A program made the translations under genes and the position numbers. The notes under the pieces were generated by a model. It was not told where the DNA came from. It ran no database searches and saw only the letters and a program-made list of their open reading frames with translations. From the NCBI GenBank assembly GCA_001598975.1, contig BBXU01001370.1, positions 1 to 24,827 on the forward strand: DNA of 24,827 nt, given 5' to 3'. Every line of letters begins with the position of its first letter. Within the stretch, counting starts at the first letter, position 1. The DNA is from Parachlorella kessleri. Lineage: Eukaryota; Chlorophyta; Trebouxiophyceae; Chlorellales; Chlorellaceae. Positions 67-22,198 of the stretch are shown one piece after another.

Positions 67-3000
67 CTGCAGTATGTCCAGGTAGCTCATGCGCCGCTTC
101 TTGCGGTCGTAGATGCGCTGGAACAGGTTGCCGCCGTCCATCAGCTCCATGATCAGGCACACGTTGGTGGGGTCACGCGTGCAGGCACCGTACACACGCA
201 CCAGCCTGCAACCAAGGAATGCAGGCAGTGGCGGTCATGCTGTCATGTGTGCTGTGCTCAGCAGCATGATGATGAGGCTGCTGCAGAGGCGGTGGGTTGG
301 GATTGGGGCAGGCAGACCTGGGCATGGTAAACCCAGTCAACTCCAAAGCGTCAGGTGTCACCGGTGCCCTAGCCTGGGACTTGGAAATGCCCAGAAACCG
401 CAGCAGGACCAGCCCCCACTCCAGACCTACACACCACCATCCTACAAGGTTTTCATCCATACTCCGTCTTTGGCCGCCCCCGGCACCTGTCACTGTTGAA
501 CTTGCTCATCAGCTGGATCTCTCGTATGAGGGCATTGTACAGCTGCTGGCTGGACCCCGGGGCCTGGCTGAGCCCCACCTGGGGCAGCTTCTTGACTGCA
601 ACCCGCCGGCCCCGGTAGGTCCCCTCATACACCGACCCAAAGCCGCCGGTGCCCTGCACAACCCACAACACATCTGTGGAGTGTCCCAGGGTGCTGTGCA
701 GTGTATGAGTCCATGGCAGTCCGTTTGCATCAGTGATGAAGCATGTCCTCTCGTTGATGCCTGGGGCTGCCATCATGACAAGCATGATGCAGCATGCCGG
801 CTGCAGCGGGAGAGCGCCTAGTATGCCCGCCCCTGGCTGAACAACTGTCCACGGCATTCCCCACTGGACACAAACTTCCCAACCTCTATAACACCAGTCA
901 GCGGGCGCCTTGCTCACCCACCAGCGCCCGACACAAGGCCAGCCCGACAGTATACACCGCAAGGCAGGCTGGCCAGGCAACACCCAGCCTTTGGAAGGCA
1001 ACGCTTACCAGGCACCAGCCCAGGAAGGGCGCGACCTCTGTCTCAAAGTCCACGTTCAGGTCTACTCAATAGGAAGCCCACCAACACCAGGCAAGCTCCC
1101 AGTTCGAGGCAGTGCTTACCAGGCACCGCCCCAGAAAGGGGGCGACCTCTGTCTCGTAGTCCACATTCAGGTCCACATCAGGCAGCGGCCCCGCGTGCGG
1201 CGACACCGGCGGCGGCAGCGGCGTGACGGGGGGTATGCCGCCCAGCGCCCGCGCCCGCTTGCCCTGCCGCCGGAACACGTCGGGGGCGGTGCCCCACGTG
1301 GCGCTCAGCTGCAGCACGCCTGCACGGGATGGCCACTCAAGACTAAAGCATTGCCGTGGGCTCCTGCGGGCAACTGTAGGAACTCCTGCCTGCTGAAGGT
1401 GAACCGCCAGCACATGGACTCGACCAACAAGGAAGGGGCAAGTCACCCCAGGTACCATCCTCAGTGTGTCTCACCATCCCAGCTCTTGCTGTGTTTCAGC
1501 GGCGTGGCCGCGGGTGGTGTGTTGGGCTGCAGCATGTCCAGGCTGGAGCCTGAGCTGCTCCTGCTGCTCCTGCTGCGGCTGCTGCGACTGCCGCGGCTGC
1601 TGGAGCGGCCTCGCGCCGGCTCGGTGCGCGGCCCGGCCCGCACGGGGAAGGGAGCAAGCGTGGGGGCTGCAGCACAGCCAGGGACACAGCAGCTAAGCAT
1701 CGTTGGCGGCAGGCACTGTGAAGGGAGGAGAGGTAGGAGTAAAGAACGTGAAGAACTGAATGTACACTCGCTCTGGGGCTTGAAATGACGACTGCAAGGC
1801 GGACAGACATTGTGTCATAAAGGGGTCCCTGCCCCAGGCGTCGCTATTGGGTGGTGTCTAGGTTGTCTGTCAGCTGCAGCTCATGCGGGCCCAGCTAGAT
1901 ACTTCCAGCTAGACCAATGCGTGCACTGGACCTCAGCCACCAGGGCACCCTCCAGGGCTCACCAGTGGACGCCTTCCTTTCCAGCAGGGCCAGCTGGGCT
2001 TCAGTCAGGTTGCCCACGCCGCCACCCCCAGTCCCACAGTCATGCTCCGAGGAAGAGGACCCTGGAAGCAGCACATGCCGTTACTACCCTCAGGGGCGGC
2101 CTGTACCCCACTGCCAGCGCCATGCTGCCAGGGTGCACCCGGGTGGCATGGGCAGCTGGAAAGATCGTCTGTCGCTTTGCTGGGCCATCTGGTTGCGAAT
2201 TGCATGCCAATACACCAAAACAGCCCGTGCAACGTCCTGTTGCTCACCTGGATCAGCCAGAAGCTGCCCACCATCCTGCAGAGCAGACCACAGTACAGGC
2301 ACGTGGTGATTGTGCTTGCATAACGCCAGATGCTGTGGACGGTACGATTGGGGCCTGCTGGAAGGAAGGACTGTGGAACTGCAAACACCTGCGTTGATGC
2401 TCTGCATGGGGTTGCTAACACCACGCAGCAGATGGGCCTCTGCCACACCCCAAGCTCCCACCTAGCCAGGGCTCACGCTATAAACACCTGCGATGCAGTG
2501 CCACTACACTCACCTGCTCCCAAGCCACGCTGCGCCTTTGCAGTCCCTTCCCGTTCGCCATCGCCACCACTCCAGGCACCGGGCTTGCGCTGTGACGGAG
2601 CAGGACAGCGCCTCCAGCCTCCATGCCCCCCAGGTCGTCCATGCGATGACTCAGCGCCCGCTTGCTCCTCTCCTGCTTTTGACGGCGCTTGCGAAGCAGG
2701 AGGAAGCCGGACAGCGCCGCCGCCGCGAGGCCCACGCCTCCAACTGCGGGAAAAGGGCAGCCACCCGGTTGTGCTTTTTCGCGCCTCACTCCAACCCGGT
2801 CAGGCTTGTGCAGAATATACTCAGGCGCCGACCAGCAGTCAGGCAAACGGTTAACACGCACCCAGGCGCGCTTTTCTGTGACTCACTCACCCCTGCTGAG
2901 CTCATGAGCCCGGCAAATGGTATCGTAGGTGATAGACGTGAGAGAAGGCCCCAGCGTTGCCCACATGCTTACAATGCTGGCTGGCTGTCGCGTAGGGCAG

Positions 3001-6000
3001 CCACGCACCTGTCACCCCGGCAATCAGCCCGACGTTTGTACCACTGGAAGAGGCAGGGGGCGGTCCTGGTGGGACGGGGCTCACAGCCGGACCCTCAGTG
3101 CGAACAGCACCGGTGATGGCAGGCTCAGCCGCAGGGGCCTCCCCTGTCACTTCCTCCACCGCGGGTGCTGGTGCCAAACCCTCTGGTATTTGACCTGCTC
3201 ACAGGCAGGCTCACAGCTATGTGTGGATCTCATCCAAGTGTTGCAAGCCGGTGTCGGTCTGTGGGCATGATGCACAGCAATGCACCACTTTGCCCCAGCT
3301 GCCAAGCCAGCCTCATTCTCTCGACCGACACACCCTCACTAGCTGTCCTGCACTCCGGATACCACCTAGTCTAGTCTAACAGGGTACCGCCACCTGACCA
3401 TGCTGCCTTGAGTCCTCGACAGGTGGGGACACCAATCGTCCAGGGTGGGCTAGTGTCCAGAAAAACACAAAATCGGCTACCACCTACCTGCCAGCTCAAG
3501 CTGCTCTGCCTCTGACTTCCAGGACACCCCGGCCTCGTCTGGCGGCCAGTCCGGCGGGATGTACGGGGGCACCGGGGCGGGGCCGGTGCAGCAGTAAGTG
3601 GCAGAGAGGAAGCAACTCTGCAAGGGCATGACTGTGACCCTTGCTGGGCAGCATGTCGGTGACAGTACGCTGCTGGACTAGAGTGGACTGGAGTAGATTA
3701 GGTTTTAGGAAACGTGCTGGGTCCACAGGTTGGCTGAAAGCTTCTGGAGACCAGGCCCAGGGTCATGCAACAATTGCTGATTGAACCGCTGAGCGCCCAT
3801 CCACTCACACCACGGTTCAACCTAATAATCTCACAGTGGAACTCATTTTGGCACGGTGCCGGCTGCGTAGACTTGTGAGTGTGGCAACCTCCCTCCCCGT
3901 CTCAACTGCACTTCTATCTACGCGAGTGCAGTGCAGGCCTCAAGTGCAGTGCAGCCCTAGGGCTCTGCTGGGTTGCTCACCCTGACGGTTCCTCCCTTGA
4001 TGATGTCGCAGCTGACTCCCGGGGGCAGGCTGCTGACACCCAGGGCCGTGCCATTGCTAGCCTGCAGATCAATGCAAGCCCCCGTCCTATGGATTTTGCT
4101 GGCTACAAGGGCGATGAATGTATGACTGTCATGTAACGCAGCTGTGAGGATACTGCTTAACTTCCGCACTTTGAGGTCCATGCAGTGCACCATGTGCAGC
4201 CTCTGGTCCAGGACAGGTAGGTGGATCTCTGTAAGCGGTGGGTGTCTACCAATGGCTGACAGGTGCAGGAGATCATGATCGTCAGTGATCACTGGTTTGG
4301 TAGGCACTCATGCTGCATTAACATATGTCTCGTTTGCCTCACCTTCACGTCAGCGGGTGGCAGAATCCCCCACACCAGGCTGCCGCTGATGTAGGCGGCA
4401 ATGTGCTGGTTCTCCACGAACTTGTACAGCCGCACCAGGTTGTGGGTGGCCGCGCCGCCCGTCTCGTTAGTTAGCGGAGGCAGCACGTAGGAGTAGTCCT
4501 GCGCCGCCCAACTAAAGCATGTTGGTAACCCTGACAATGCCAGGGTAGTATTATGCTGCCCGCAGCATCACTGTACAATGGGGATTCTGTCTTTGTAGTG
4601 CTAGCTGCCGGGTTCGCAGGGTTTTGTAGTGTGCAGCGCCTTCTGAGGCTCGCAGCACGTTTCGTAGGAGTTGCCGCAGTTTGGTGAAGGAATGCCAGGT
4701 GCCTGCGCCATAGCCTGCGCACCTTGTGTGGGTTTAGAAGGGGCTTCCCGCTGACGGAGCTGATGTTGACGTAGATGTCCAGCTTGTCCAGGGCGTACAG
4801 CGGGTTCTGGTTCTGGTCGAAGATGGGAGCAATGGCCCCCGCCCCTGATGGCCTGAGGGTGACGTTGGTCTGGGGGTCAAAGGAGATCCCCACCACAATC
4901 TCCGCTCCTGGGATGTCTGGGTAGCCGCTGATGGGGAAGACATTGATCCCACGGCAACCTGCACAGGGCAGGGGACGCGCCGTCGACGCATGCTTCCCCA
5001 TGTGCTGGATGGAGCCTGTAGGCTGCCCCCGTGCCATCCCGGGCATGCATTAGATCATAGATACTACCTGCGGCTGTGGCATGGGTTTATCAGTGGCAGC
5101 TCCATGGCCATGACCCCAGCACCATTCGGCAGCGACTGGGTTATTGCATTCCTCTTACTGCTCATCATGCTGCTGTCGCATGCTTCATATGACCTACAGC
5201 CTCACCTCCGTCAGCAAACGGGGCGCTGGAGATGATGCAGCTGGCCTGGAAGGGTATCCAGGGGGCCCGCGCCAGCAGAGGCACAATCAGGTCGGAGCTC
5301 ATCCAGTAGCGGAAGCTGAGCGTCGACAGCTCAATGGAAGACAGGTTCTGCACGTTCGTCACCCTGCGCGTGCAGCCAACCAGCAGCCTGGGTAGCGCCT
5401 CACCACCCCAGGTGGCTGTGCGGCATTGGAACATTTCTGTTGGGGTGCAGTGCAGGAGGTGCCCTGGCATGGAACAAAGGTGACTTCTTTGAACCTAGGC
5501 AGGCCCACAGGCTGACCGACTGCCTGCCACACTCCTGCGGTGGCCCCACCTGATCAGGAAGGCACTGAAGGTGGAGATCTGCGGCTGGTCGACAAACTCT
5601 ATCGGCACGTATTGGACCTGCAGTCCAGCGCGGGAATGAGCCCATGAGGTCCCTCAAGCATTGTCATATGCAGCTCCACAATTCCTCCAGTTCCTTTTGA
5701 CCGCACGGCCTGCAAAGTGGTGCGGCTGCCTTTTCAAATTTCGCGCCTAGCACAGACCAATTGCCGCTAAGCCTAGTGGGTATTGATGTGTGATAGCTGC
5801 TACTTACCTGCAGCTTAGTGGAGTTGTACACTGCGAGCGTCTCCTGGCTAAGGTTAGGCTTCGGCACCTCAACCTGCACACAACATCTTGCCATCCCCCT
5901 TGCTGCGGCCCCAGCCCATGTAGCACAAGCCTTGCTTGGGGTGGGAAGCTTCCCAGTAAGGCAGGCAGCTCGCCCCGCTTCACTGCGCTTCCCCAGCACG

Positions 6001-7455
6001 GCAAGTCACACATCAATGCTGGCACAATTTGTGTTCTGGCAGGTAACTGGTAAGTCTTCTCTTGGCAAGAGCACAACACTAAGGCAATGCCCAACAAGGC
6101 AGCAGCTCACCTGCGGGCAGGCGAGGTTCTGGAACACCACCTCATCAATCGGGACCACGGAGTAGGCGGGGTCCAGCAATGCTTGCTCTGCAAACCTTAC
6201 ATGGAGCCGCTGCTAACCAGATGGCGTGCACTAATAGCTATGCGTGGCATGTGGCCTTCGAAGATATGGCTTCATGTGTGGGTTGGCTTCATGTGTGGGT
6301 GGGTGCACACGCCATCAAGAGGGACCGTCTTGCCATTCGGACGCAACCAGCTTCAACCAACTGTCCCACATTATCTTGTAGGTACAGGGTCACAGCCCAG
6401 GGGTCGTGCTGCTGCAATCTAATGCCAGTTGGCTGGCGGCAAGGCACCATGCGAGCGCCAGTGGCTGCCTGGTATAAAATACTGCCTGCCTGGCGGGCCT
6501 GAGAAACTCACCTGGTGTCTTGGTTCCAATGAAGCTCAAGCCTGTGAAGGTTCCATTTCCCAGCAGGATGGGGGACGTGCTGCCAGGGTTGACCAACTGA
6601 AGGTATGTGGGGCCAGCCAGGCTCCTATCCTGCAGAAGCCAGGCAGGCACAGAACTCATAAGGATGCACACAATTTGACAATGTGATGTTGTGGGCAGTC
6701 GCACCACACTCGTATTGTGCAGTGCACAGCAGGCTGTGCCGTGCTTGTAGCTTGCAGGGTGCAACCTGCGAGGTAAACAACTGTGGCAGGACTATCACTC
6801 ACCAATGGCAGCAGGGAGTTCTGAACTTGCACCGCATCTGTGCTCTGTATCGTGGCATTGGCTGGGAACTTCCAGCCAAGAGCCCACAGGTCGGTTGGCA
6901 CCTGGAGACAGGGGCGCAAACATATACTGTACTTATAGCCTTGCACAGCTGCTGCCAGATGTCCGCCTTGCCTGGCAAATTCGACAGGCCAGAAGTTCCC
7001 TGTCCTCAGCTGAGCTGCAGCTGCCTCTTTCCTGTGGGCACTCGACCACCTCCTGCCCTCATTGATGTAGCACACGCCCCACTGACCTTGGGACTGATAA
7101 CAGACAGGAATGCTTGGAAGTTGGGCACCGCCTGTCGGCTGGCGCTTGCGTTGCTGGGCCCAGCAAGCTGCTGGTCTCCCATGTAGACTATATACTGCAT
7201 CGTCAGCTCGCAGCTAGACACATTCGGCGGCAGTCCGCTGTTGCCCCCAGCGGTTCCTAGGAGCAGGTTTGCTGCACCGCCTGGCTGCCCAGCAACCAGC
7301 AGCGGCTGCAGCAACGCCAGGCACACAAGTACAAGGCTGCAGCACAGCTCCAGCGCTGCCTGTGTCCTTGGACCGGCCTTGCCAGGGAGTCCTGATGGCA
7401 CTGGCCTCCCGGCATCCCAACCTTGCTGTAACTGGGGGCCGTCAGCCACTGCCAT
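67..7455 (-). CDS. Receptor-like TKL kinase with CBM2-like and CBM3-like ectodomain, gene A (3' end off window)
   Basis: Likely cell-surface receptor kinase. Exons, 5' to 3' on the minus strand: 7455-7087, 6901-6803, 6629-6512, 6187-6111, 5873-5808, 5617-5550, 5363-5206, 4958-4723, 4498-4343, 4061-3981, 3617-3488, 3194-3009, 2743-2514, 2275-2248, 2061-1963, 1666-1475, 1319-1120, 653-487, 205-67; 933 codons with no internal stop. Residues 37-55 are a hydrophobic export segment after an unusually long N-region. Residues 82-222 look CBM2-like (WALGWKFPANATI). Residues 244-449 look CBM3-like (IELSTLSFRYW, a DYSY turn, SGSLVWGILPP). A membrane-proximal YCCTGP motif follows, then a membrane helix at about 571-596 ending in RKRRQ. 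After a Ser/Arg-rich linker the kinase begins at 832 (GTGGFGSVYEG; Lys852 in VAVKK). The window ends before HRD and DFG. Exon 14 is only 28 nt. Exon phases match gene B throughout, which supports the model. The CBM assignments are by eye. Confidence 0.85.
1003..1062 (-). repeat. Duplicated exon end in an intron of gene A
   Basis: This intronic stretch repeats, 111 bases away, the end of the exon at 1319-1120 (bases 1114-1173), including the donor site. On the minus strand the copy would read DLNVDFETEVAPFLGWCL followed by gtaagc, against DLNVDYETEVAPFLGRCL in the real exon. No usable in-frame acceptor precedes it: the nearby AGs lead at once to a stop. It is probably a decaying partial-exon duplication that kept a decoy 5' splice site. 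Confidence 0.8.
6268..6301. repeat. 17-bp tandem duplication in an intron
   Basis: Two adjacent 17-base copies beginning ggcttcatgtgtgggt, differing only in the last base, lie in the intron of gene A between exons 6512 and 6187. No function is visible. Confidence 0.8.
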
Positions 7456-7806
7456 TAGCCGTGTTTTATGTGCTTCACGCCCGCTGGCCTTTAACAGCCT
7501 GTTTGCTCAACTACAAGCACGTGGGACCGTGCTACCCATCCTTGCCTTGTGTTGGCCAGCATGCTATTTTTGCATGGATTTATGATCATTCACAACTATG
7601 GTAAGCTAGGCGTGGATGAGCAACAAGGCCCGTTACAGTCTGTCTCCCATTCCCATGTGGCTATCTTCCCGCCAAAACCATTTTGGCCTCTCTTTCTCCA
7701 TGGCTTACGTCCCAGCTATTCATCTCCCCATTATGTGTTCCGAGGGCGTGAAATGGTACTAGGACAGCTCCTTGCCTCCCTGCAGTGAGCGGTGGAAGTT
7801 GCACGG
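7456..7806. promoter_or_regulatory. Shared divergent promoter region of genes A and C
   Basis: These 351 bases separate the start codons of A (minus) and C (plus), so both promoters and 5' leaders must lie here. A short upstream ORF at 7753-7788 (MVLGQLLASLQ, stop) precedes the C start and could lower its translation if it is in the transcript. On the minus strand a cataaaac sequence lies just upstream of the A start, but too close to serve confidently as a TATA box. I see no other clear element. Confidence 0.55.
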
Positions 7807-8838
7807 ATGGAAAGCTCGGTTGGGAGGCTCAGGGCTCAGTTATTCGGTCTGATCCTGTTGGTAGCCATATTTACCAAAGCTGCAGCCAGCTATGCCATCC
7901 AAACCACGACCGACGCAGCTGCAGCTGACGGCAGCCCCAGGCATGGCCACAGGGCCCGGCATCTGCTTCAATGTGGACAGTGCCCAGCAGACGCAGCACA
8001 GACTTGCAGCTCCCTCAGCCAAGCAGAGAGAGAGGCCATACGCAACAAGCTCATCAGAAGCTGTCCTCTTGGAGCCTGCTCACAGGGAGGCTGCGCAACA
8101 ACCTGCTGTAGCAGCCTCCCTTCTCCGTCATCACAAGATTGGGCGAACCTCGCGGCATGTATATGGTGAGTCGTGAGTGTGTGCATCATGCGAGTTTGGC
8201 AGCTGCAGCAGATGCACCACAACACCATTGCTGGGTAATGGTCATTCTCTCCGAACACCATCGTCACTGTGCAGCAGCATCTTTCTCAATCTGTCAGTGC
8301 AAAGTGTTGGCCACTGCAAAGGGACAAGCGTGATTCTGTAGCCTTTTGCTGCCACTGCAGCTCCAACCAGATACCCGGGCTGTCCGCGTTTGTGGAGGGT
8401 GAAGCCGTCATCAGGGGTTGCAGCTGCGGCGGCACCTCGACTGCAGCCTCCACTGGACCTGCCTCTGCGCCTCAGCCGCCTGCTGCCCCAAATCTGGTGC
8501 GAGCGCCTCCACAGCAGCCAGGCCCGCCCCCAACCACCACGTGGGTGCAGGTGCAGCCGCCAGCCGCAGGAGCCACAATGCCAGCCCCAGCCAGCAATCC
8601 AACTGGGGCCGCCCTGCCGAGCACTGCGACGACAAATGAGATCCTGAGGGTGCTGGGAGTCGGTCCTTACAGCTCCTCGTCCGCGGCGGGGTCGTCGGCA
8701 GCTACGGCCAATGTGGTGCAGCCCAGCGCAAATCTGGTGGCAAGCCTTCAGCAGCAGCCAGCAGCTGTGGGCCAGCCTCCGGTCCAGCAGGGTGGCCTAG
8801 CCAGTAGCAGCAACACCGCTAGTGCAGGAGTTGGTTGA
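7807..8838 (+). CDS. Secreted 12-cysteine protein with Pro/Ala/Gln-rich tail, gene C
   Basis: Two exons, 7807-8165 and 8361-8838, joined in phase 2 across a GT-AG intron; 278 aa. The start is the first in-frame ATG, directly ahead of a hydrophobic signal peptide (LFGLILLVAIFTKAAA). The mature part has an RHLLQ motif and then twelve cysteines: C-x2-C-x7-C-x18-C-x4-C-x4-C-x3-CC-x16-C-x-C-x19-C-x-C, the last CxC at about residue 140. From about residue 145 it is a low-complexity Pro/Ala/Gln/Ser tail, as in wall-associated or O-glycosylated proteins. There is no C-terminal hydrophobic segment, so a GPI anchor is unlikely. Gene D has the same plan. I do not recognise the family. The CC...CxC order recalls plant 8-Cys lipid-transfer proteins, but that is only a resemblance. 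It is divergently paired with receptor gene A. Confidence 0.8.
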
Positions 8839-9351
8839 GCTAGGTGTGGAGCCCTTTTTCCAGCACCATTGTTTGGAATGGACGATTGTACACATGGGGA
8901 CTTCTTGCTGGTGGGACATTTTTGCTAGTTGGCCATGGTGCTGCCAACCTTACTGTCCTGCTATAGCTATGCATCTGTTCCAATTGCCTGCTGCGACGTG
9001 ACAAAGTCAGGCTTACATCGGAAAGGGGGGCATCGGATTTGAATGAGAATCGCTGAACTGGAGCTGCTGGCAGGGCAGGTTTGCTGCATGCATGCGCGCA
9101 GGACTGCAGCTGCCTGCTGTACACTAAGCTTGGCACTAAGCAAAGCCGGATTGCTACCTGCTTGCTGCTTTCATGTTGTCACGAGGCCTCGTGCTCTCCA
9201 TGTTCTGATCGCTGCCTCCTATTTTTGGCATAGTGATTTGGCCTTTTTCTTTGCATGGGCTGCTTGCTGTCACAAACAGATCTGACCGTCTACTGGTCCA
9301 CCTTTCCTTGCTTACAATGCCAGTCCTCACTGTGCCATGGGTATGTATGCT

Positions 9352-9356
9352 TGTAA
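9352..9356 (+). terminator. TGTAA polyadenylation signal for gene C
   Basis: First TGTAA on the plus strand after the C stop codon, giving a 3' UTR of about 0.5 kb. TGTAA is the usual signal in chlorophyte nuclear genes. Confidence 0.55.
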
Positions 9357-9713
9357 CTGTGCAATGCCGTCTACGCACGCAAGCCATTTAGCTTGTGCCG
9401 GTTGTTAGCGACGCAGATTTGCATCAGACAAGAGCAAACACTACCGAAGACTCGAGACGTCTCCATTTATACAAAAACAGCAAACGGCAGCATTTGCACA
9501 CTGCACGGCTCACTCCAGCGGGCAAAACAACAGTAGGAAGGGCAAAAATGAAAGTGACAACTCATCACTGCATGCTTGACACTTTGGTGACACAAAGGGT
9601 CTACGCCTGAAGGTCAGTCACAGTGTCAGAAAGGAAGGAGCGGGGAAGTGCTGACATTGTGAACCTGGGATAACCGCAGCGTGGACTCGCGACCATCTCT
9701 ACGTTGCTATGCG

Positions 9714-9718
9714 TTACA
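9714..9718 (-). terminator. TGTAA polyadenylation signal for gene B
   Basis: The minus-strand TGTAA (ttaca on the plus strand) is the first one downstream of the B stop codon at 9947. B and C therefore converge with about 360 bases between their signals. I see no gene in 9357-9713. Confidence 0.55.
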
Positions 9719-9946
9719 ACACCTGCAATCTGTTACGAACAGGGCTATGACTGTACAAGACAGAGCAACAATAGCACTGTGCTGTGCCAGTCTACGCCTA
9801 GCTTATACATAAAATGATGGATGCAGCCTGCCCTATTACTACAATATCTCAAACAAAATTGCTTGAGGCCTGGCGCCAGGCAAGCCTTCCTTTTGCGGGT
9901 CCACAGGACAAGCTGCCAGGAAGCGATGCTACGAAACTAGATGGCC

Positions 9947-12900
9947 TTAGCTGCTGCCAGACTCACCGCCTGCCTCCTTGCCAGGTGTATTCCAGGCAGC
10001 CGCTGTCACCATAGCGGCAGTGTCACAGTTTGTGACAGGCCCTGCCTCAACTGCCTCTGCCTGAGTAGCTTGCTGCCTTCCCGAGCTGCCGGCTGACCCT
10101 ACCGCCACTGCTGGCCCTCCTGCGGTCGGCACCGCTGCATTTGCAGCCTGCGCAAGCAGCTCAGCAGCAGCGCCCGGCGCCGGCACTGATGCCGCACGCG
10201 GCGACATGCCCTGCAAGGGAGCGCCGCGGGCCGCGGCCGGCAGCCTGCCGCCTGGCAGCTGTCCCCCTAGCCCATGCCTCTGCAGCTGCTCCCACCTCAG
10301 CAGCTCTTCCTGGATCATGAAGTCTGTGAGCCGCATGATCTCGGCCGGGCTGGGTCGCATGTGGGGGTCCTGGTGCCAGCACTTGGTGATGAGCTTGCGC
10401 AGCGGGTCGGGGCAGTCAGGGTCCATCCACGGCCGCTCGCCGTTGATGGCCACCTGGGACAATAGATGCCATTGTGATGTCAGAACAGCAAGCTTGCAGT
10501 TGCCCATCATCGCGTCCATGACCTGCAAAAGTGTGCCTGGATGCGGCCCGTGCTCTGCCTCCTCACTGGCCGGGGCAGGGTTACGACACTTCCATGCAGC
10601 CCTGTATTCCCAAGGCCTGGGCAACCCATGCATGCCCAAAACCGCATGACCTGCTGGTCTGCAGAATAAAGGGTGTGCACTCCGATGGGCCATGCAACCA
10701 AAAGCGGACCTTGAGGATGATCTGGAAGAAGTGTGAAGACTCCTTCCAGGGCTGCCGCCGTGTGCAGCACTCATTCAAGATGACGCCCAGCGCAAACACG
10801 TCCACCTGCAGACGGTGCAGTGCTTGTGTGGTGGTCGGATGGTATAAAACTCCCGATTTGCCCCGCACTACGGATCGCCTTCAATATGAGCTGCTGACAC
10901 TGATTGAGGTTTGTTGAAAAAGTGGCAGCGGATTGGAAGTCTCCAACACATTTGACTGGCTGAAGGCAAAGCTGCAAGCCACAACAATCGTAAACTCATG
11001 GTAATGGCCACGAACCTTCTCATCTACTCTGCTGCCATTGAACTGCTCAGGGGCCATGTACATGGGCGTGCCATTGTCATTGGTGACTGACAGGTAGGAC
11101 TTTGTGGGGTCCTTGACCTGCAAAGGTAGAATCTCAAAGGGCGTGTCCTTTCACAAACACGTGTCCTTCACAAACACGGTGGACGTCACTGCAACAAATG
11201 GCAGCAGCAGCAGCGAAGCAGGAAGTGATGCCGTAGAAAAGCTGGTCGAAACAGACCTGAACAAAGTGTGGCTGCATGAACCGACAAAAGGGAGTGGAGG
11301 AGAACGGCCATGTGCAGTGGTGGGGTGAACTCACCCTGGAGATGCCAAAGTCTGCCAGCTTCGCCCGCCCCTCCATGTCAAGCAGCACGTTCTGCAGAGG
11401 CGAGCCAAATTGATCAACCAAGCTTATAGTGATGGTTTTAGCTAGCTTAAATCTTTGAGCAAGGATGCTGTATGCTAACCATGCAGGGTGCACTCCACAA
11501 GCCTTGTCAGCACCCTACTCTTTCAAATACGGTAGTATATGCAGACATGCCTCCAGGGCCATCCTTGGGACAAGATCTCAACCTCCAAATCCCCACCTGC
11601 GGCTTCAGGTCTCTGTGCACGACCGAGGGGTGCAGGTACGCAAGGCCAGCCGCCATGTCGTGCGCCAACTGCACAGCAAACATTAAAAGCTGCGTCTGAC
11701 AGACCCCATTCACTTGCAATCATTGGGCATATGATTCAAACCCCCTCAGTTGATCGGCCGTCTCTGGCTCCCTTCTGGCTATGTCCCCCATGTCATGGCA
11801 AGAATCCTCCCCCGCCAGGCAGCATCTGATGATGCACCAGCAGCCCACCTGCAATATGTCCAGGTAGCTCATGCGCCGCTTCTTGCGGTCGTAGATGCGC
11901 TGGAACAGGTTGCCGCCATCCATCAGCTCCATGATCAGGCACACGTTGTGCCTGTCACGTGTGCAGGCACCGTACACCCGCACCAGCCTACAGCCATGGA
12001 ACCATCCTCGGTTGCCTCCCTTCTCATGTGAAGCACACACCTCCGCCCAAACCACTACCTTCCTCAACTCAACCTCAACCTCGATCAGAATACCGTCCAG
12101 CAGCCCATGCAGGCAACGCTGACCCTGGCACATACACGCACCTGTCACAATCGAACTTGCTGGCCAGCTGGATCTCCCTCAGCAGCCCCTCATATAGCTC
12201 CTCGCTGAAGGGCTGGTCTGCGTTCAGCTGCGGCAGCTTCTTGACTGCCGCACGGCGGCCACGCCAGGTTGCCTCGTAGACAGCACCAAAGCCCCCCGTG
12301 CCCTGCACACGTCCTCGAATATTGTATATGCAGGCTTCAGCTGGGCAGCCACCCTTTGAACTTTTGGAGCAGCATGGAGGCATGCAGAGCGCACGCCTGG
12401 CAAGCTGGGTGGTCAAATGGGTGGCATGGGTCTCAACATTGGGTGCCACCATAGGTATGAGAGTGCTGAGAGTGCTATAGCAGTTCTTAGTGCTAAATGG
12501 TCCAGCAAACTACGGCAGGCTACTCACCAGGCACTTGCTCATGAACGGCTTGATCTCCGTCTCGTAGTCAACATCAAGGTCCACATCCGGCAGGGGGCCC
12601 CCACTGGGCAGCACCGGCGGCGGCAGCGAGGCCAAGGGAGGGATGGAATGCGGCAGCGGCACATTAGCCTTGCGGCGCCGCAGGTGGTGCGGAATTAGCT
12701 CCAGGCTGTGCGTCTCGCACATTGTTCCTGCATTGCCGAGGTAGCAGTGCATGGAGCAATACTTCCGCATAACTCAAGCATTGTGGCAGCCATAGCATGA
12801 GGTACTGCCCAGAGTGCTTTTTCCATGCGGTCAGCAAACAGACGATGTGGGGTTCCACCTGGGCAGCCATCAATCACAACTCCCATCGCCAGAGAGGAAC

Positions 12901-15900
12901 CTACATAGGAAGCTGTGTGTGATCTGGGTGCTGGTGCAGACAGCAGCGCACGTAGGGATGAATAAGTAATTATGTGCAAGGGGAACAAGGAGAACAAGCA
13001 ATCGAGGGCAAGCCCTGCTGCTTACCATCCCAGCTCCTGCTGCGACGCTGTTGCCAGGGCTCCAGAGTCCCTTGGCAGCAGGCATGTCGCTGCGTGTCGT
13101 GCCGCGCACTGGGGCTGCACACCGCCGCAGACGGCTGAGGTGAAATGCTTGGAGCTGCAGCACGGGAACGCATTGTCCTATCAACAGCGTCCAATAGTCT
13201 GCTTTCAATTGCATGCCAAGGCTCTCAGCTGCCTACCACAGACACTGTGACCATGCTCAGCTACGGCACCTTCACTGTACAGCATCCTCAGCTCAATGCA
13301 CTGCCCTGACTGCATACCTGTGGCTGCTTTGCGTTCCAGCATTGCCAGTAGCTCCAGGGTGATGCCCTCTTCCTCAGCTTCAGTGGCTGGTCTGTGTCTG
13401 GTGCCTGTTGCAGCCTCCTCTAAAGGAGAGCTCCCTGCGCTCAGCACTTTTCAGACCTTTGTTTGCCGAGCTGTCAGCGTGCCGCATGGGTGCCAACCAC
13501 GCGGGGAGCAGCATACTGGCAACATATGTGGGCGGTATTAGGACCATCCACGCACCAGTGCTTTGGGCAAGCAGCGGCACCAATTTTACGTCACAGCCAC
13601 CTAGCCCAAAGCGCCACCGTCTCTCACCCGAACCCTCCGACTTGCTGACAGTGGGGGAGGCGTCTTTTTGGGCTCCGCTGGAATCCCATCTGATCAGTCG
13701 CTGCTGTGTTGAGCCCATTGGTGTCTCAGCCTCAGCGTCCATGTCAAACACTGCAGTACAAACCCCGAGCTGTACCTTCTGATGGCTATGCATGCTGGAA
13801 GCCCTAACACGCACACTATTAACTAATCACCATATTGCCATGGAATTGCTCAGATTTGCATGGGGCTGCAAGACCTCATGCAAGACCTCATGCTTTGGTG
13901 CCTACCATGGATTATGTCTACCGGATTACAAGCCATGGTGCAATGTGCCCAGTGAATGCTAGTGGTAGTCCCAGGCCTCGCAAAACCCTCACCTGGGTTG
14001 TCATGGGCGCTCGACACACCGCTGAAGCCGCTGCCAAACTTTATGAGGTTGCTGCGCCCGCCGGATGGCTGCCTGGCTAGCAGCGGTAGATTAGACTGTC
14101 GGCTGGGGCTGCTGCGCACTGAGGTAGTTTCAGATGCCGCTGCGCGCTCTGGCAGGCCAGGCCAGAATATGAGGGGGCGCTCCGCGGTGGGAACCTCCAG
14201 GGCCGCTGAGTCTGCCATGCCCTGCAATAGGGGCAACTCTGAAACTTTGAGCTCGTTCAGGCCTGGCTGACAGCCTTGACATCCGAGAACAACATCATCT
14301 CAGACCAGGCTAAGGGTGGGTTGCTTACACGAGCATCAGCAACCCCTTCAGCCAGGATGAGAGCAGGATGGATTAGGAGTCATAGAAAAGGCACAATCAG
14401 GCAGGCCTGCCCATTCATCTCCCTTGGGAGGAACATGCACAGTGGCAGCCACCCACCGGGTATCGTGGGGACTTTGGCGGCTTCCCACTAGAGCTGGCGC
14501 CGTCCTTGTGGATCAAGATGCTGCTGGGTATCATGGCGGTGTCGGTCACAAAGACTCTCCGCTCCTCATCATGCCGCAGACGGCGGCGCCGCCGCAGCCG
14601 GAAGGCTAGGAAGCCAGCCACACACGCTACCACCGCCAGGCCAGCTGCATCAGCAGGTATTAAAAGACAGTGAACACTGCCTTGAATCTCACTAATGGGA
14701 TGCGCTACTGCATGCAACTTGCATGGGTCATCAACTCGGCATAGTCTCGACGGGAAGCTAACAGCTGTAGGCTGGGTAACAGTAGCTGCCAGGCAGCGTC
14801 AGTTCACTTCGCTTGCTTGCCTGCTAGTCCTGCAATCCAAGCCTTGCTGGCGCCGCTGCTGCTCGTGCTAGGAGAAGGGGAAGCGGGAGGCCCCGCAGTT
14901 GCAGGGGCGCCAAGAGACCGTGGTGAGCTATTAGGGGTCGCTTGAGGGCCTGCATTGGATAAATCAGCCAATGTCTACAATGGCGCACAAGATGTGCTTC
15001 TTCGGATAGGATGCCAGTCTTGGACAAGACAACGACTGAGTCATGCTGCATCGTACCAGAAGTGTGCAGACAGGCCGAGCATGGAGCTTTGCAAGCCAGT
15101 GTAAATCTGACCTCTCAGGAACCCTTGCTGAGGTGGCATGCTGTTAAGTGCAAGACTTCCAGGTCCCCCCTACCTGGCAAGCTTGTGCCGTAACCAGGAT
15201 GCTGTGGTGATTGCCCACTCACAGCTGGCAGGCCGGCATTGGCAGGCAGCATGCCAACATCCTCAGGCGGCCAGTGCTCTGGGGGGTACGTGCTAACAGG
15301 CTCCGGCCCCGTGCAACAATAGACAGCAGCCAGGCCGCACCTCTGCAATGCAAGGCAAGATTGCCACGGGTGTAGTTCAGCAGTGTGAGACTACGTCCCA
15401 AGCAGGCAGCATCCTTGGATGCCTTGCGGTGAAGCTAGCTCGACCCACATTGCCGACCTGAGGGAGCTACAGCACTCTTGTGCAGGAAATCTAGCACACA
15501 ACATAACATTCCTGACTAAACACAAGGCCATGAGGTTACCTGTTTGGGTTCAGATGCCGGCCCATCGCAGGTGATCCCCAGTGGAAGGTTGGACTCTGTG
15601 CTTGGAGCCTGTGGAAGGACCCCCTGCAGCCATGAAGTCGTTGAACAATGTGAATTCTGATATAACAATGCCACAGCCAATGCATACCTGCAGGTTGGCT
15701 TGAGTTGTTATGCTCCCACACAAAAGCAGCGGAATTTCTGCCTGGGTCCTATACGGGCCGCTATCTTAGGCAGTCAGTCTAGTCTAGTCAGGCAGTCAAC
15801 CCCTACTGTATCTCACCATCATGTCCTCCATTGTTGGGCTGGGCAGCTGTCCCCACACCAGCTGACCATTTTTGTAAGCGGGGATGTGAGGATTTGCAAT

Positions 15901-18602
15901 GGCCCGACGGGGGATGATGGTGGCATTCAAGTCCACATTCAGCTCAGGAGTGTCCATAAAGGAGAAGTCCTGCAGCCATAGAGTGCTATCAGGTTTTCAA
16001 TGTGTCAGCCATAGACTGTAAGGCTTGGGGGTTATAATGAGAAATACTACTGCAGGTCCCCCAACAGCGATTCCATGGGAGGGCAATGAGCAGGATGGGC
16101 GAGGTGCATGCCGCTCTGGAAGTTTTCCAACCGTCATGGCAGTAGAGGTTCATGACCTCAGCCACTAGGTGCCAGCACACCTAGGCTAGCCGCCCTGGTT
16201 GCCCACACAGATCACCTGTGAGGCGTTGAATGTGGCCACCCCTTGGCGGGTGGCCACTGTGATGAGCAGATCCATGACATCAACCCCTTTCCCCCAAAAC
16301 AGGGCCGGCACTGAGTTCTCCCCTGTGGGCATGAGCAGCCCTGCCGTGCTGTTCATGCTGATGTTGACGAAGAAACGGGCGCCAGGCACGTCAGCAAACC
16401 CTGGGAGCATCTGCAGGTTCACTGAGCCACAGCCTGCATTGCGAGGAGTACCATGTTAGCAGTCGCGCACGGTCTGAGTATCTAGGTGTGAGTTGCGCCT
16501 CACCAAATATTGCAAGGCCTGTCCTGCACCAAGTCACAGGGCATCCAGCTCTGCTTCAGCAACAACTGTCACATCTCGTTGAACAAGGCAGACTGCCGCC
16601 CCCTGGCTTGCACAGATCACAGCGCAGCTGCCAGGCAAGGGGGAGGCCTCACCTGTAGTAGCCCAGTCGCATCGCGCTAAGAAATAGGTGTCAGGGTTCA
16701 GCTGCGAGTACGGCAGCACAGTCTCAGGCCCCTCCAGCCAGTACTGCATGCTGATGGTTGACAAGTCGATGGGGTCGCTGCTCTTCACATTCTTGATCCT
16801 GCACGCATTGTCCCTACTGGCTCAGGGTAGCTGCCACTGTGGCCTTGGACTATACTGTATGCAGCTGTCTTGACTACCCACCCATTTGAGTGCTTGTGCA
16901 AAAGTGCGTCCGCAAGCTAAGGCCGTTGCTGCCAGCCTCACCTTACTAGGAACTGTGTAAACGTGTCAACCGAGGGCTCTTCGGCGTAATCAATGGGCGT
17001 ATACTCAATCTGCAGCGGGCAGAGCTTGCTCAGCAGACGTCAGCCAGTGCCAGAAGCCGTCAAAGTGACTATTCATGGTGGCGGCACCAATGAGACAGCA
17101 GAAAGGGGACCACGCAGCACATGCAACACATGCAGCAAGCACACTCCAGCTGTGACGCTTACCTGCACCTCCGTGGCATTCTTGACGGGGGCGCTGGCAG
17201 AGGGAGCTGGCGACGGGGCCAATGGCAACTGGGATGGTACGGCAACCTGCATGGCAGCATAGTCTCACACAAACGACTGCCAATTAGTGAGCGTGGTAGT
17301 AAGACGGCCAGAGTGTGCTTCCAAGAGCAGCGCCTTTGCCGGCTCCCATCCTGAGCCAAGCTGTACCTGAGAACAACCCATCGCTGCATGCAATCCCGCC
17401 ACCACCTCCTCACGCCCTCGCGCACACTGGGCCACCATTATCGGCGCCTTACGGTACCCGTTACCTGTCCCTACAGGCTGGTAACGCGCATGAAGGCTGG
17501 CGCAAGACATGCCAGCAACCTTACCATAGTACAGAGCAAGTTATTGAACATCACGTTCTCGATAGGCGCCACTTGAAACTGGTTACCAGGGGATGCTGCA
17601 TCAGGCACACACACCAGCCACGGATCAGACGCTCCTAGTTCACTTTGCAGCTGCACGCAGCTTGATGCTGCTGTCCGATATATGCACCAAGCCAGCAACA
17701 TGCAGGCTTGGCACTAATTCTCCCATCACCGTCTGCAGCATGCAACCCGGTCGGGGGCTACGACTTGCGCAGCATGCTGAGCACGCTGGCCCTCATTCCC
17801 ACTGTCAGGTGTACCCACGTGCTGTCAAGTCCTTAGTAGCCAGGAACTGTAGCGGGAAAGGTGTGTCGTCATCAGGTGCCAGTGTGCCGTTGAAACCCAC
17901 TGAGTGCACCACTGGGCTGTCTGAGCCGGGGTTCTCCAGGATGACTGCACTGCTAAAGAGCTCCTGCATCAGTGCAATGCAGTCGATGATTCAGTGTGCA
18001 AGCAGTCATGCATGCAGTCTGCTGGAGCCATAGAAGGGAATATATCCAAGCGGGTCTACAAGCCTGTCAACCGTAGGAGTTCCCGCTGCCAATGTTTTGT
18101 GAGGTTTCACGCACGCCACCAGGACGTCTAGAGAGCTTCTCCTATCATTACACCAGGCCGCAAGAGTGCGCTCCTGGAAAGCGCGGCATGCTTACTGCTT
18201 GCGAGTTAATTGTGGCGTTGTAAGGGAAGGTCCAGCCTAGCTTCCACTCCTCTATGGTGTCCTGCACGTTCACATGCACTCGCTTGATGACTCGCAGCCG
18301 CACAGCACGGCAGAAATTCCAGCAAGGGCCACACGCAAAGCTTCAGCTACACAGGCGCAGTGCAGTACACTTACATTCTGGTTGTTGCTGATGCTGATGA
18401 AGCCCACATATATGGGTACACTGTTATTTTGCTCCCGCCCTAGATCGACATCATATCGCACTGTCACTGGGCACTGGTGGCTGCTGGCTGCTCTGAGCAA
18501 CGCTGCGTCAGCGCCGGTCGGCTGGCCATCTGCTGCGCACACTGCCTGGCTGAGAAAGGCAGCCACAGCAGCTAAGCACCACAAAACAGCGTGTTGCAAC
18601 AT
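9947..18602 (-). CDS. Receptor-like TKL kinase with CBM2-like and CBM3-like ectodomain, gene B (complete)
   Basis: Paralog of gene A, 1180 aa, 24 exons: 18602-18375, 18261-18196, 17963-17819, 17595-17525, 17246-17163, 17009-16942, 16798-16653, 16433-16216, 15969-15817, 15608-15540, 15342-15174, 14949-14821, 14644-14457, 14221-13993, 13434-13318, 13154-13026, 12727-12528, 12302-12142, 11987-11849, 11668-11597, 11391-11335, 11117-11016, 10805-10710, 10453-9947. Signal peptide 1-24. CBM2-like module 44-170 (EEWKLGWTFPYNATI). Pro/Ser linker 171-198. CBM3-like module 199-393 (IDLSTISMQYW, CDWATTGC, DFSF, NGQLVWGQLP). YCCTGP motif, then membrane helix at about 509-530 followed by RLRRRRR. Kinase from 804: GTGGFG, Lys824, HRDLKPQN with Asp923, DFG at 941-943, GTPMYMAPE, a DVFALGVIL helix and WHQDPHMRP. 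All catalytic residues are present, so it should be active, probably as a Ser/Thr-type TKL enzyme. An Ala/Gln-rich tail ends at a TAA. One intron is GC-AG. It shares its upstream region with gene D. Confidence 0.88.
11143..11177. repeat. 17/18-bp tandem duplication in an intron
   Basis: Two adjacent copies of gtgtcctt(t)cacaaacac, differing by one T, lie in the intron of gene B between exons 11391 and 11117. Seen directly; no function inferred. Confidence 0.8.
13868..13891. repeat. Perfect 12-bp tandem duplication in an intron
   Basis: Two adjacent copies of gcaagacctcat lie in the intron of gene B between exons 13993 and 13434. This is one of several short tandem duplications in the window. 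Confidence 0.8.
14645..14820 (-). other. GC-AG intron within the membrane helix of gene B
   Basis: The exon ending at 14821 is followed on the minus strand by gcaagc, so the donor is CAG|GCAAGC. The next exon starts at 14644 after tgatgcag. Only this join keeps phase 1 and rebuilds a continuous membrane helix (WIAGLA then AGLAVVACVAGF). The nearest GT donor gives the wrong frame and loses the helix. Gene A has a normal donor (CAG|GTGCGT at 3009) at the same place. Confidence 0.75.
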
Positions 18603-19444
18603 TGTCTTGCCTCAGGCTGCTGCAACGCTGGAGGCAACCAAGCTCTAGCTGCCTGTTATCTTTCAGACTGGCTCTCTTGCTGCTGCTGGGCTAGGCTGCT
18701 GCATGCTTTTGGCTTGCAAGGGCAGCTCACGAGGCAGAGCTGAGGCTCTGCAGCTGCTGTGGGTCGCTTCCAAGGGCCGCGGTTGCTACTAGCTTCTCGG
18801 GAGAGCCAGCTAGCACCACTATGCGCCCGCGTGCTTGTAGCGTCCTGTCCTTCACCAAAAGCTAGCTGACCGTTGTCTAGCCGGCTGCAGCTGATCTTAG
18901 GTTGCCGCCAATGTAAGAGAGCTCCTCTCAAGCAATGCTCCCTTGCCTTTGTCCTCCAGTACGTCTCTTTAAGGTTAACCTCTGGCGTGTAGCCTCAGGG
19001 CCCCATGCAGTGATTCCTGCTGCTTATACTCTCTTCCCGCCATTGCATGAGGGATTTTGCCATGTTTCTCGGAATATGCACTAATCAGCCCGACGGCAAG
19101 GTCGGGCAGGCACACCTGTGCCGCTGCTGGGAAAGGTTTCAAATGTCGGTTTAAACTGTGCTGCGACATATGGCCCCCAACAACGTCATCCCTGGCCGCC
19201 AACTTGGCAAGTCCTTTCAGGTCAGTCCTTGGCCGCCCAGCTGCCCCTCATGGACCTCCTAACTGGTTGGAGGTCCCCATGAAGGGCAGCTGAAAACCTG
19301 CGGCGCGTCTAGTGGCTGGCCGGCAAGGTTCAAAAATTGGGGAGTGGCATCGGGAGTGGCAGCAGGGCGCTCTATCTGGCCAACACATGGAGGTTGATCG
19401 TGCGAACCCCAATTGTGCAGGCGGTCGTGGTGACATGGAACCGA
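18603..19444. promoter_or_regulatory. Shared divergent promoter region of genes B and D
   Basis: These 842 bases separate the start codons of B (minus) and D (plus), and no other gene is visible. They hold a 10-bp palindrome (AGGTTAACCT at 18972-18981), a long inverted repeat (19238-19292), and an upstream ORF at 19387-19452 that overlaps the D start in another frame and could limit D translation. The region is more than twice as long as the A/C equivalent. Confidence 0.5.
19238..19292. repeat. Long inverted repeat (hairpin) upstream of gene D
   Basis: A 22-base left arm (19238-19259, from cagctgcccc to acctcc) and a 24-base right arm (19269-19292, from ggaggt to ggcagctg) are nearly perfect reverse complements around a 9-base loop. 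The few mismatches and a two-base bulge lie mid-arm. It lies about 150 bases before the D start and 640 before the B start. It could be a dyad protein-binding site, a 5' UTR hairpin, or the remnant of a small inverted-repeat element. Confidence 0.75.
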
Positions 19445-20677
19445 ATGGGTAGGGCGGCTGTAGTAATAGCCCTCCTCCTCTGCACAGCCAGCAACAGCCA
19501 GACAGCTGAGGCAGCCTGCAGTAGGGCCAGCCGCTGGCATCAGGAGGCTGCCGTCCCACGCCGGCAGCTGCAGCAGCAAAGCGGCGGCGGCACATGCTCG
19601 CAATGCCCACCTGCAGGCGCTGCCAACCAGACGTGCAGCGCCTTGGATGCCAGCGACCGGCTGCGCATGCGCTCAGCACTTGTAGCTCGCTGCGGGACTT
19701 CCCTTTGCCCGCCAGGGCTGGCAGCAGCGGCTTGCAGTTCTTGCTGCGCAAGCCTTCCCGATCGGGCGTCGCCTCAGTGGGCCAACTATGCAGCCTGCAT
19801 GTGGTGAGTGGCATGGAGGCTCAAGCACAACCCCAGCCTTGCGCTCCCTGCATGGCCGGTACGTCTTGAGAGTCAATGTTGTAGGGAGACAATGCAAACC
19901 TAGGTTATGACGCTGGACCTGCTGTCTAAACGGGTGTAGTTGCTGTTTTGTTGCTGCTGCTGCAGCTCGGGTCAGCTGGCCGGCCTGGACGCTTATGTCG
20001 ACGTTCCCACAGTCCTTGGCGCCTGCGGGTGTGGCAACCCGGCAGCAGCCTCAGGGTAAGCTAGGCAGACCAGCTGGGTACTGCCATGCAGCATGCCATG
20101 CCGGACCCGCAGCAGCTATTCCTATTTTACCCTAATTGGAATTGTTTTTCTTGAGGAGGTGCACACCCGTTCACATAAACAAGGCTCATGTCTCTGTATG
20201 GCACCGGCCAGGTAGCGTGGCTATGCGCTGCTAACTACTTGCGGACTAGGTGTGCCACAACAACTCCCGTGTCCAGCAGTTGGCTTCGTGCACTGCAGCC
20301 CGCCGGCCGGGTCCCTGCCAGCGCAGCAGCCACCCAACTCCTCTCCAAGCCCACCTGGCAGCACCACGCAGCCCAGCTACGACAGCGGCAGCAGCAGCAA
20401 CACCGGCAGCAGCGGCGCCGGCACGCAGCCGTTCCTTGGCGGCGTGCTGTCAGGCAGCACTGGCCAGGGCGCGGCCGACATTGCAGCAGTGCTCAGCTCC
20501 GCCATCCAGTTTGGGAGTGGGCCCTCAATCTCTGAAGCTCGGCAGGCCGTGGAGGCCAGCGCCGCGGCGGCTCGGGCGGCCGCGGCGAGCGGCGGCAGCG
20601 GAGCGACTTCCACGGGAGGTGGAAGCAGCGGCTCGCCTGGGAGTCCTACAGGGGGCTCTCCCCCTGGGTCAGGCTGA
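19445..20677 (+). CDS. Secreted 12-cysteine protein with Ser/Gly/Pro-rich tail, gene D
   Basis: Three exons, 19445-19803, 19966-20055 and 20299-20677; both introns are GT-AG and phase 2; 275 aa. The ATG at 19445 starts a signal peptide (GRAAVVIALLLCTASNS). Exon 1 is 359 nt, exactly as in paralog C, and ends at the same codon. An RRQLQ motif precedes the cysteine module (residues 51 to about 141): C-x2-C-x9-C-x18-C-x4-C-x8-C-x2-CC-x16-C-x-C-x19-C-x-C. The tail is Ser/Gly/Pro/Ala-rich and includes one more ordered-looking stretch around FLGGVLSGSTGQGAADIAAV. C lacks the second intron. NQTC is a possible N-glycosylation site. Family not recognised. It is divergent from receptor gene B. Confidence 0.8.
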
Positions 20678-22162: not shown

Positions 22163-22198
22163 TCAGCGGCCCTGGAACCACAGCTCCTTGTACTTGCT
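22101..22198. repeat. 53-bp-offset direct duplication of the gene E stop-codon region
   Basis: The end of the E coding sequence (22153 to about 22198, including the stop at 22163-22165) is repeated 53 bases further downstream in E (22101 to about 22145) with a few changes. Both copies carry cctcagcggccctgg followed by ccacagctccttg. Only the copy nearer the reading frame is used; the other lies in the 3' UTR. Confidence 0.8.

Follow-up and report, generated by a model that had tools for sequence, protein, structure and literature searches.

Two head-to-head pairs of receptor kinase and Cys-rich genes

The window analyzed here spans the complete contig C777 (24,827 bp) in a genome assembly of the green alga Parachlorella kessleri (Chlorophyta, Trebouxiophyceae, Chlorellales), which comprises 50.9 Mb in 1,642 contigs. 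It carries two receptor kinase genes, A and B, and two genes for Cys-rich proteins, C and D, in the order A(-) C(+) B(-) D(+), by which two adjacent head-to-head pairs, A/C and B/D, are formed. The start codons are separated by 351 bp in the A-C divergent intergenic region (7456 to 7806) and by 842 bp in the B-D region (18603 to 19444), neither of which is assigned a strand. An earlier note on this DNA had described two such adjacent units and proposed that receptor and secreted partner were duplicated together; the order was established, and the observation on the paired genes largely holds, with the corrections given below.

Gene models were first drafted by automatic spliced dynamic programming, which handled most exons of A and B well but mispredicted some of them and failed for C and D, and were then curated by hand. 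Gene B (9947 to 18602, minus strand) is complete, with 25 exons encoding 1221 amino acids (aa). Gene A (67 to 7455, minus strand) is represented in the window by 19 exons, of which exons 1-10 lie at 7455-7087, 6901-6803, 6629-6512, 6187-6111, 5873-5808, 5617-5550, 5363-5206, 4958-4723, 4498-4343 and 4061-3981 and exons 11-19 at 3617-3488, 3194-3009, 2743-2514, 2275-2248, 2061-1963, 1666-1475, 1319-1120, 653-487 and 205-67. It is truncated by the contig end, at a CA repeat, and its last five exons were placed on contig C1187 (493-2627), giving a model of 1341 aa. The C1187 exons extend A with the exon order and phases of B, four further intron phases being equal, and from the sequences we infer a join across contigs C777 and C1187. 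When introns 1-19 of A were compared with introns 1-14 and 16-20 of B, which has one extra exon (no. 15), all 19 comparable phases were equal in the hand-curated models, as the earlier note had reported; since some splice sites were picked with the other gene in view, these phases are partly non-independent.

Both Cys-rich genes start with an exon of 359 nt, as had been noticed before, with compensating indels behind the equal length. Exon 1 of C (7807 to 8165, plus strand) encodes a signal-like segment with a hydropathy peak of 1.93 at residue 13 and Cys 1-9, and exon 2 (8361 to 8838, plus strand) the end of Cys 10, Cys 11-12, an Ala/Pro/Ser-rich tail and the stop, resulting in a protein of 278 aa. 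In D, exon 1 (19445 to 19803, plus strand) opens with a short segment that looks hydrophobic by eye and continues with Cys 1-9 of the 12-Cys domain; exon 2 (19966 to 20055, plus strand), which agrees with the NCBI prediction P0002, encodes the end of Cys 10 and Cys 11-12, and exon 3 (20299 to 20677, plus strand) a Ser/Gly/Ala/Pro-rich tail and the stop (275 aa). In both genes exon 1 ends in phase 2 within a Cys-x-Cys, two bases into the codon for the second Cys; the second intron of D is absent from C. The tails are about 135 residues long and Ala/Ser/Pro/Gly-rich. The claim that the Cys spacing is the same was confirmed for 8 of 11 intervals (C: 2,7,18,4,4,3,0,16,1,19,1; D: 2,9,18,4,8,2,0,16,1,19,1), but three intervals differ, and D has the additional intron and two further Cys ahead of the domain, 14 in all. 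Secretion had been proposed for both proteins. The N-terminal hydropathy peak of C is clear, whereas D shows no peak above 1.3 in a 19-residue window and only a shorter hydrophobic run by eye; judged by hydropathy and inspection, C and D are probably secreted. The 275-aa model of D is 100% identical to the Parachlorella kessleri protein N2152v2_006738, encoded on a 1.39-Mb contig; the NCBI predicted D protein (P0002) starts 25 residues upstream of it.

Three members of the Cys family were found in the genome, namely C, D and a dispersed gene E, detected with an E-value of 1e-3; with C alone as query, C and D only were recovered. Gene E (C368:25628-26818 and beyond; L049:3629-4819) has 10 Cys, two extra introns and the same Cys-x-Cys intron phase. 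The sequences do not support a grouping of C and D as sisters: pairwise identities are equal (C-D 40/90, C-E 42/93, D-E 40/92), and two features missing from C, a Cys interval of 9 residues and a phase-2 intron behind the domain, are common to D and E. In common against E, C and D have 12 Cys and lack its two extra introns. Weak matches on C841, C1627, C1021, C1610 and C251 (E 0.05-2.35) were also discarded, as no consistent Cys pattern was seen by eye in the tblastn rows, for which C841 and C1627 were taken with their flanks. The Cys domain could be assigned to none of the Pfam, NCBIfam or PDB families, C giving a weak match to EVA_Class_A (E 0.1), and no relative of the domain was found in the viral contigs searched. 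A protein-database search with D (E ≤ 1) returned only P0002, which is D itself, and one 169-aa tail fragment; the 7,988 candidates scored were those with the most words in common with the query, the low-complexity tail probably accounting for many of them, and absence elsewhere is not implied. The lipid-transfer (prolamin 8-Cys) fold consists of four helices and has CC and CxC pairs. Both CC and CxC occur in the C/D domain, which gave no Pfam lipid-transfer protein match and no PDB sequence match.

Some further features were observed at the locus. The C-terminal tail of A (L048:1731-2627, on C1187) is Gln-rich, with tandem repeats resembling QQLEG..VHQRP..HGQQG, none of which occur in B. Intron 11 of A holds a ~105-bp interspersed repeat (3366-3474) with at least 39 further genome copies at about 80-89% identity, a lower bound obtained by scoring 40 of 456 candidates. 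The end of exon 17 of A, together with its splice donor, is duplicated in intron 17 (996-1065 versus 1107-1176, 86%) and reads VDLNVDFETEVAPFLGWCL; this piece is possibly an alternative or relic exon. To the right of D, a response-regulator receiver gene spliced by eye lies on the minus strand at about 22150-23650 (Pfam E 1.7e-16).

Predicted domain architecture of A and B

According to profile comparisons, the ectodomain of A and B is composed of a CBM2-like and a CBM3-like carbohydrate-binding module (CBM). All modules are encoded on the minus strand and have approximate limits. Module 1 of B (17525 to 18478, exons 1-4) matched Pfam CBM_2 with an E-value of 5.4e-5 when searched alone (23.9 bits, cut-off 24), and module 2 of B (15817 to 17175, end of exon 5 to exon 9) matched CBM_3 at 3.3e-4 (21.5 bits, cut-off 22.4) and, in a single-sequence search, PDB entry 6d5b at 4.4e-6. 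Module 2 of A (4343 to 5820, end of exon 5 to exon 9) matched CBM_3 at 0.0014 (19.4 bits against the same 22.4), and module 1 of A (6111 to 7215, end of exon 1 to exon 4) was assigned by its homology to the CBM2-like module of B in an alignment with relatives. As whole ectodomains, B matched CBM_2 (E 8e-4) and CBM_3 (E 0.0015) and A matched CBM_3 (E 0.005), all under the curated cut-offs; two unrelated weak matches were obtained for A (Phage_tail_U, E 0.27; 7TM_GPCR_Sru, E 0.051). With excised modules (E ≤ 0.1), CBM_3 was detected in all six family members, the module of P0006 scoring 15.3 bits against the cut-off of 22.4, and CBM_2 in five, the exception being A. A family profile of module 2 gave 13 PDB matches at E ≤ 1 (best E 5.6e-11), 12 of them named as cellulose-binding, cellulosomal/cellulosome, endoglucanase or glycoside-hydrolase entries and one as a 'scaffolding protein'. 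The profile of module 1 gave five (best E 0.0023), named cellulase, xylanase, ChiC or cellulose-binding.

The CBM3-like module is followed by a short conserved Cys motif and then by one membrane span. In A, exons 12-13 (2514 to 3194, minus strand) encode a Pro-rich stalk, the transmembrane segment (hydropathy peak 2.05 at residue 574) and an Arg/Lys-rich cytoplasmic start; in B, exons 12-13 (14457 to 14949, minus strand) encode a Pro/Ser-rich stalk, the transmembrane segment (2.38 at residue 511) and an Arg-rich stop-transfer sequence. Peaks are also present near both N-termini, and weaker ones (A 1.56 at residue 1166 and 1.37 at 292; B 1.33 at 155) were not taken as spans. By hydropathy and motifs, A and B are thus single-pass receptor kinases with a predicted signal segment, an ectodomain, one span and a kinase.

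The kinase domain of B (10290 to 12600, minus strand, approximately from the end of exon 18 to exon 25) matched Pfam Pkinase at 1.4e-52. The N-terminal part of that of A (GTGGFG, VAVKK) lies at 67 to 1190 on the minus strand, and its HRDLKPQN, DFG and APE motifs are on C1187. Both receptors have the catalytic motifs GTGGFG, VAVKK/AAVKK, HRDLKPQN, ADFG and APEQ, those of A coming partly from C1187. Among the best 60 of 689 matches to solved structures were TAK1 (E 1.3e-40), CTR1 (E 9.8e-38) and the plant CERK1 (E 1.2e-28). These nearest solved relatives tentatively suggest that the kinase is of TKL MAP3K-like rather than receptor-like kinase (RLK)/Pelle origin.

In their own genome, the ectodomains were found in A and B only: 13 of 14 rows of an exon-wise search (E ≤ 1) fell into the two genes, the other row being weak (E 0.125), and in a second such search 14 of 15 did so (remaining row E 0.27). 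An exon-by-exon Pfam scan of the genome gave no CBM_3 and two weak CBM_2 matches elsewhere, but it missed A and B themselves and is uninformative on the rarity of the modules. Outside the genome, residues 1-460 of the 1,221 of B were searched against 5.8 billion proteins, with 7,989 candidates scored. Five proteins were recovered at E ≤ 1, namely two that are evidently models of a single gene of Auxenochlorella protothecoides (P0004/P0008), one EukProt protein and two from another source; all five align over ectodomain and kinase and have precomputed kinase domains. Pfam scans (E ≤ 0.1) of four of the five whole proteins (P0008 left out) detected CBM_2 in P0004, P0005 and P0007 and CBM_3 in P0004 and P0005, the CBM_2 match of P0007 (27.7 bits) lying above the cut-off; neither was detected in whole P0006. 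By these alignments and profile matches, the predicted CBM2-CBM3 kinase plan is present also in Auxenochlorella and in three further database proteins. In viral contigs, three loci match the kinase part alone, with 27-30% identity.

That the arrangement described here is an artefact of a collapsed or chimeric contig or of wrong splicing is very improbable. Such an origin would fit the exit of A from the contig at a CA repeat, its tail on another contig and the use of hand-made models, but the D protein has an identical NCBI counterpart on a 1.39-Mb contig, the C1187 tail continues A with the exon order and phases of B, and in other algae there are homologues that can be aligned across both ectodomain and kinase.

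The ectodomains of WAK and CrRLK1L receptors such as FERONIA contain GUB_WAK/EGF or malectin modules. A and B resemble these receptors in the working plan of an extracellular carbohydrate-binding module, one span and a cytoplasmic kinase. They differ in that no WAK or malectin-type module was found in their ectodomains by Pfam scans and that their kinase is nearest to TAK1/CTR1 among the best solved matches listed. With bacterial cellulases and cellulosome scaffoldins, which contain CBM3 and CBM2 (PF00942, PF00553), they share the match of both family profiles; here, however, the modules occur in one protein with a membrane span and a eukaryotic protein kinase, scores are marginal, and module 1 of A has no match. 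C-type and L-type lectin RLKs have been described for the chlorophyte Chlamydomonas (PMC10868138); these likewise join a carbohydrate-binding ectodomain to a green algal kinase, but use lectins instead of CBM2-/CBM3-like modules. CRINKLY4-like proteins in Chlorella have also been discussed (PMC4617170). Among the matches listed in open-access PMC titles and abstract starts, no CBM2-/CBM3-type receptor kinase of green algae was found.

Unequal divergence of the duplicated receptors

A and B are 84% identical in the kinase (235/281) and 34% in the ectodomain (126/371). Compared with other algae, B reaches 44-48% identity and A 29-34%. In an unrooted kinase tree, A and B were separated from four other algae with an ultrafast bootstrap of 94; the same split received 60 in the ectodomain tree. 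Quartet columns in the kinase favored A+B by 60 against 29 for both alternatives together, and 50 against 68 were counted in the ectodomain. Of 118 ectodomain columns invariant in the four other algae, 36 were changed in A only, 6 in B only and 15 in both (p 2.8e-6, A versus B). The corresponding numbers for 146 invariant kinase columns were 8, 5 and 4. Read from these alignments, B is the conserved form of the receptor, and A is a form of which the ectodomain diverged fast and the kinase stayed close.

Synonymous codon choice was assessed by the number of sites with the same codon. Between the A and B ectodomains this number is at or below chance (54/174, 72.2 expected), and between C and D it is at chance level (35/85, 32.4 expected). 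As synonymous sites are at chance in both comparisons, the duplication of the receptor and that of the Cys gene can each be called old, with compatible ages. In the kinase, the same codon was used at 37 of 41 sites in exon 20 (20.2 expected) and 16 of 18 in exon 22 (8.1), but at 11 of 22 in exon 21 (10.0), and the rate varies among kinase exons 19-25 (permutation p 0.0004). A recent duplication, which the young appearance of kinase exons might indicate, was rejected because synonymous sites of the ectodomain and of C/D are saturated. Since same-codon rates differ between kinase exons while ectodomain and C/D are saturated, gene conversion is the likelier explanation, and the kinase of A was probably kept close to that of B by conversion in kinase exons. 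The 139-nt kinase exon at 67-205 in A and 11849-11987 in B lies in a 156-nt stretch that is 92% identical between the two genes; other A/B repeat pairs in kinase and juxtamembrane exons are 73-79% identical.

The limitation of fast change to the ectodomain, with the kinase constrained, could also indicate that A is an immune-type receptor for foreign wall glycans of bacteria, fungi or parasites, duplicated from a wall sensor B. The solved relatives of the CBM2 and CBM3 modules are, by their entry names, cellulose- or chitin-acting proteins, which would suit such a role. However, relaxed constraint yields the same pattern, and module 1 of A is no longer recognizable as CBM_2; we regard an immune role of A as unlikely.

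Linkage of the pairs and a candidate role in wall sensing

Two independent chance pairs are not credible, yet one block duplication explains both, and the linkage has to be counted as one juxtaposition. With real linkage and old duplications of compatible age, a single ancient block duplication giving rise to A/C and B/D is the simplest reading of the sequences, in line with the joint duplication suggested earlier. The Cys gene may then merely have stood beside the receptor when the segment was tandemly duplicated, with no functional tie. Passive linkage of this kind would account for both pairs by one event, and it suits the equal distances among C, D and E. It agrees also with the position of E on another contig, where tblastn (E ≤ 10) over the 29 kb of C368:12000-41000 gave no convincing match to either part of B (best E 1.5 for the kinase, 0.53 for the ectodomain), other kinase types not being sought; C368 is absent, too, from whole-genome matches to the B kinase at E ≤ 1e-8. 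The gene upstream of E, on the same strand, appears leucine-rich-repeat-like by eye. Passive linkage would also suit the scarcity of common motifs upstream, as 11-mers present in both intergenic regions are only weakly enriched (P 0.046 versus random segment pairs). On the other side, the gene order outlasted synonymous saturation, and the start codons still lie only a few hundred base pairs apart in both pairs. We consider passive linkage a serious alternative, albeit clearly short of an even chance.

A copy of TTCCCGCC is present in each of the two intergenic regions, in the same orientation (7666-7673; 19034-19041). In other loci, 57.9 kb in total, this sequence has a density of about 0.05 per kb. 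The match was found post hoc. We take the motif to be E2F-like, and it may serve as a lead for cell-cycle co-regulation of the pairs.

Alternatively, C and D could be the cognate secreted ligands of A and B, respectively, as in the SRK/SCR logic invoked by the earlier note. The SRK ectodomain contains B_lectin, SLG and PAN domains and is joined to a kinase of the RLK/Pelle type, SCR is a small (about 50-80 aa), secreted, defensin-like 8-Cys protein, and extreme allelic polymorphism with suppressed recombination characterizes the SRK-SCR system. No S-domain family was found in the A/B ectodomains by Pfam scans (E ≤ 10 for whole, E ≤ 0.1 for excised sequences), and C and D, far from being small and defensin-like, carry long tails. 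The comparison fails in these two features, S-domain and small 8-Cys ligand, and the analogy for A/C and B/D is a weak one. The systems are alike in the tight linkage of a receptor-kinase gene to a gene for a small secreted protein, as described for Brassicaceae self-incompatibility (PMC11291619), but differ in the ectodomain, in the greater size and the tail of the Cys protein, in the presence of two tandem pairs in one assembly, in the unlinked third Cys paralogue and in the lack of a known mating role. A cognate ligand would be consistent with the linked genes, both of them duplicated, and with the excess of changed conserved columns in the A ectodomain, which co-evolution could cause. Against it stand the CBM-like ectodomain, the low-complexity tails, the absence of such a receptor near E, and the presence of the receptor in other algae, the database search with D, of limited sensitivity, having recovered no relative of the Cys protein apart from D and one fragment. 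This interpretation is considered improbable.

The idea of wall sensing, also voiced in the earlier note, is strengthened by the finding of a CBM2-like and a CBM3-like module in the ectodomain. A cell-wall glycan sensor with a co-regulated secreted wall protein, encoded in an anciently duplicated block, is preferred to a linked receptor and partner because it better fits the domains, and we think it somewhat likelier to be true than false. The ectodomains of A and B would hold a polysaccharide of the Chlorellales wall, a glycan resembling chitin or cellulose, and the kinase would report the state of the wall into the cell. The short shared 5' region would co-regulate receptor and Cys gene, and deposition of the wall protein would thereby coincide with synthesis of the sensor. 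With its wall-protein-like Ala/Ser/Pro/Gly-rich tail, the Cys-rich protein would more likely be a matrix co-factor than a diffusible ligand. After an ancient duplication of the block, B would have kept the ancestral ectodomain, while that of A would have changed quickly and kinase exons would have been partly re-homogenized. Glycan binding, signaling, secretion, co-expression and contact between receptor and Cys protein are what this model would predict; linkage, catalytic motifs, algal relatives of the receptor, rate asymmetry and, by sequence, the domain architecture were observed. Walls of Chlorella vulgaris are described as containing chitin-like and cellulose-like polymers (PMC8759652), and glucosamine is treated as a constituent of the rigid wall (PMC5908957).

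Several results weigh against such a sensor. Every CBM score of A and B lies below the Pfam curated cut-off, and module 1 of A has no Pfam CBM_2 match at all. Two tryptophans of 1exg, which we take to be binding residues, are absent from the aligned region, AW and PW of 1exg being aligned to VF and DL; glycan binding by the CBM2-like region may thus have been lost. A structure model of P0007, built with four relatives, reached a mean predicted local distance difference test score (pLDDT) of 35, too poor for a fold, and its best 50 Foldseek matches are kinases. The model of D (P0002 with two C exons as separate rows) is all-helical, with a pLDDT of 46.7 likewise too poor for a fold, and gave no PDB fold match at E ≤ 0.001. 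The lack of a receptor match beside E and the weak enrichment of common 11-mers count in the same direction, and no sugar composition of the P. kessleri wall was found among the literature matches listed.

In a more far-reaching proposal, the Chlorellales CBM2-CBM3 kinase and its Cys partner would form a duplicated recognition cassette, in which B/D monitors the own wall, A/C has a rapidly diversified glycan-binding ectodomain, and gene conversion keeps the kinase of A matched to the common signaling pathway. We give this proposal little credence; if true, it would mean that a receptor-ligand or immune-type system specific to algae had evolved independently. To our knowledge, wall sensing in walled unicellular green algae is little understood. 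The CBM2-/CBM3-like receptor kinase provides a concrete, testable candidate for this function, and its pairing with a Cys-rich gene offers a natural hypothesis for the partner protein of the receptor, in a species for which a draft genome and transcriptome of strain NIES-2152, with RNA-seq under sulfur depletion (PMC4724957), and gene editing (PMC10916037) have been reported.

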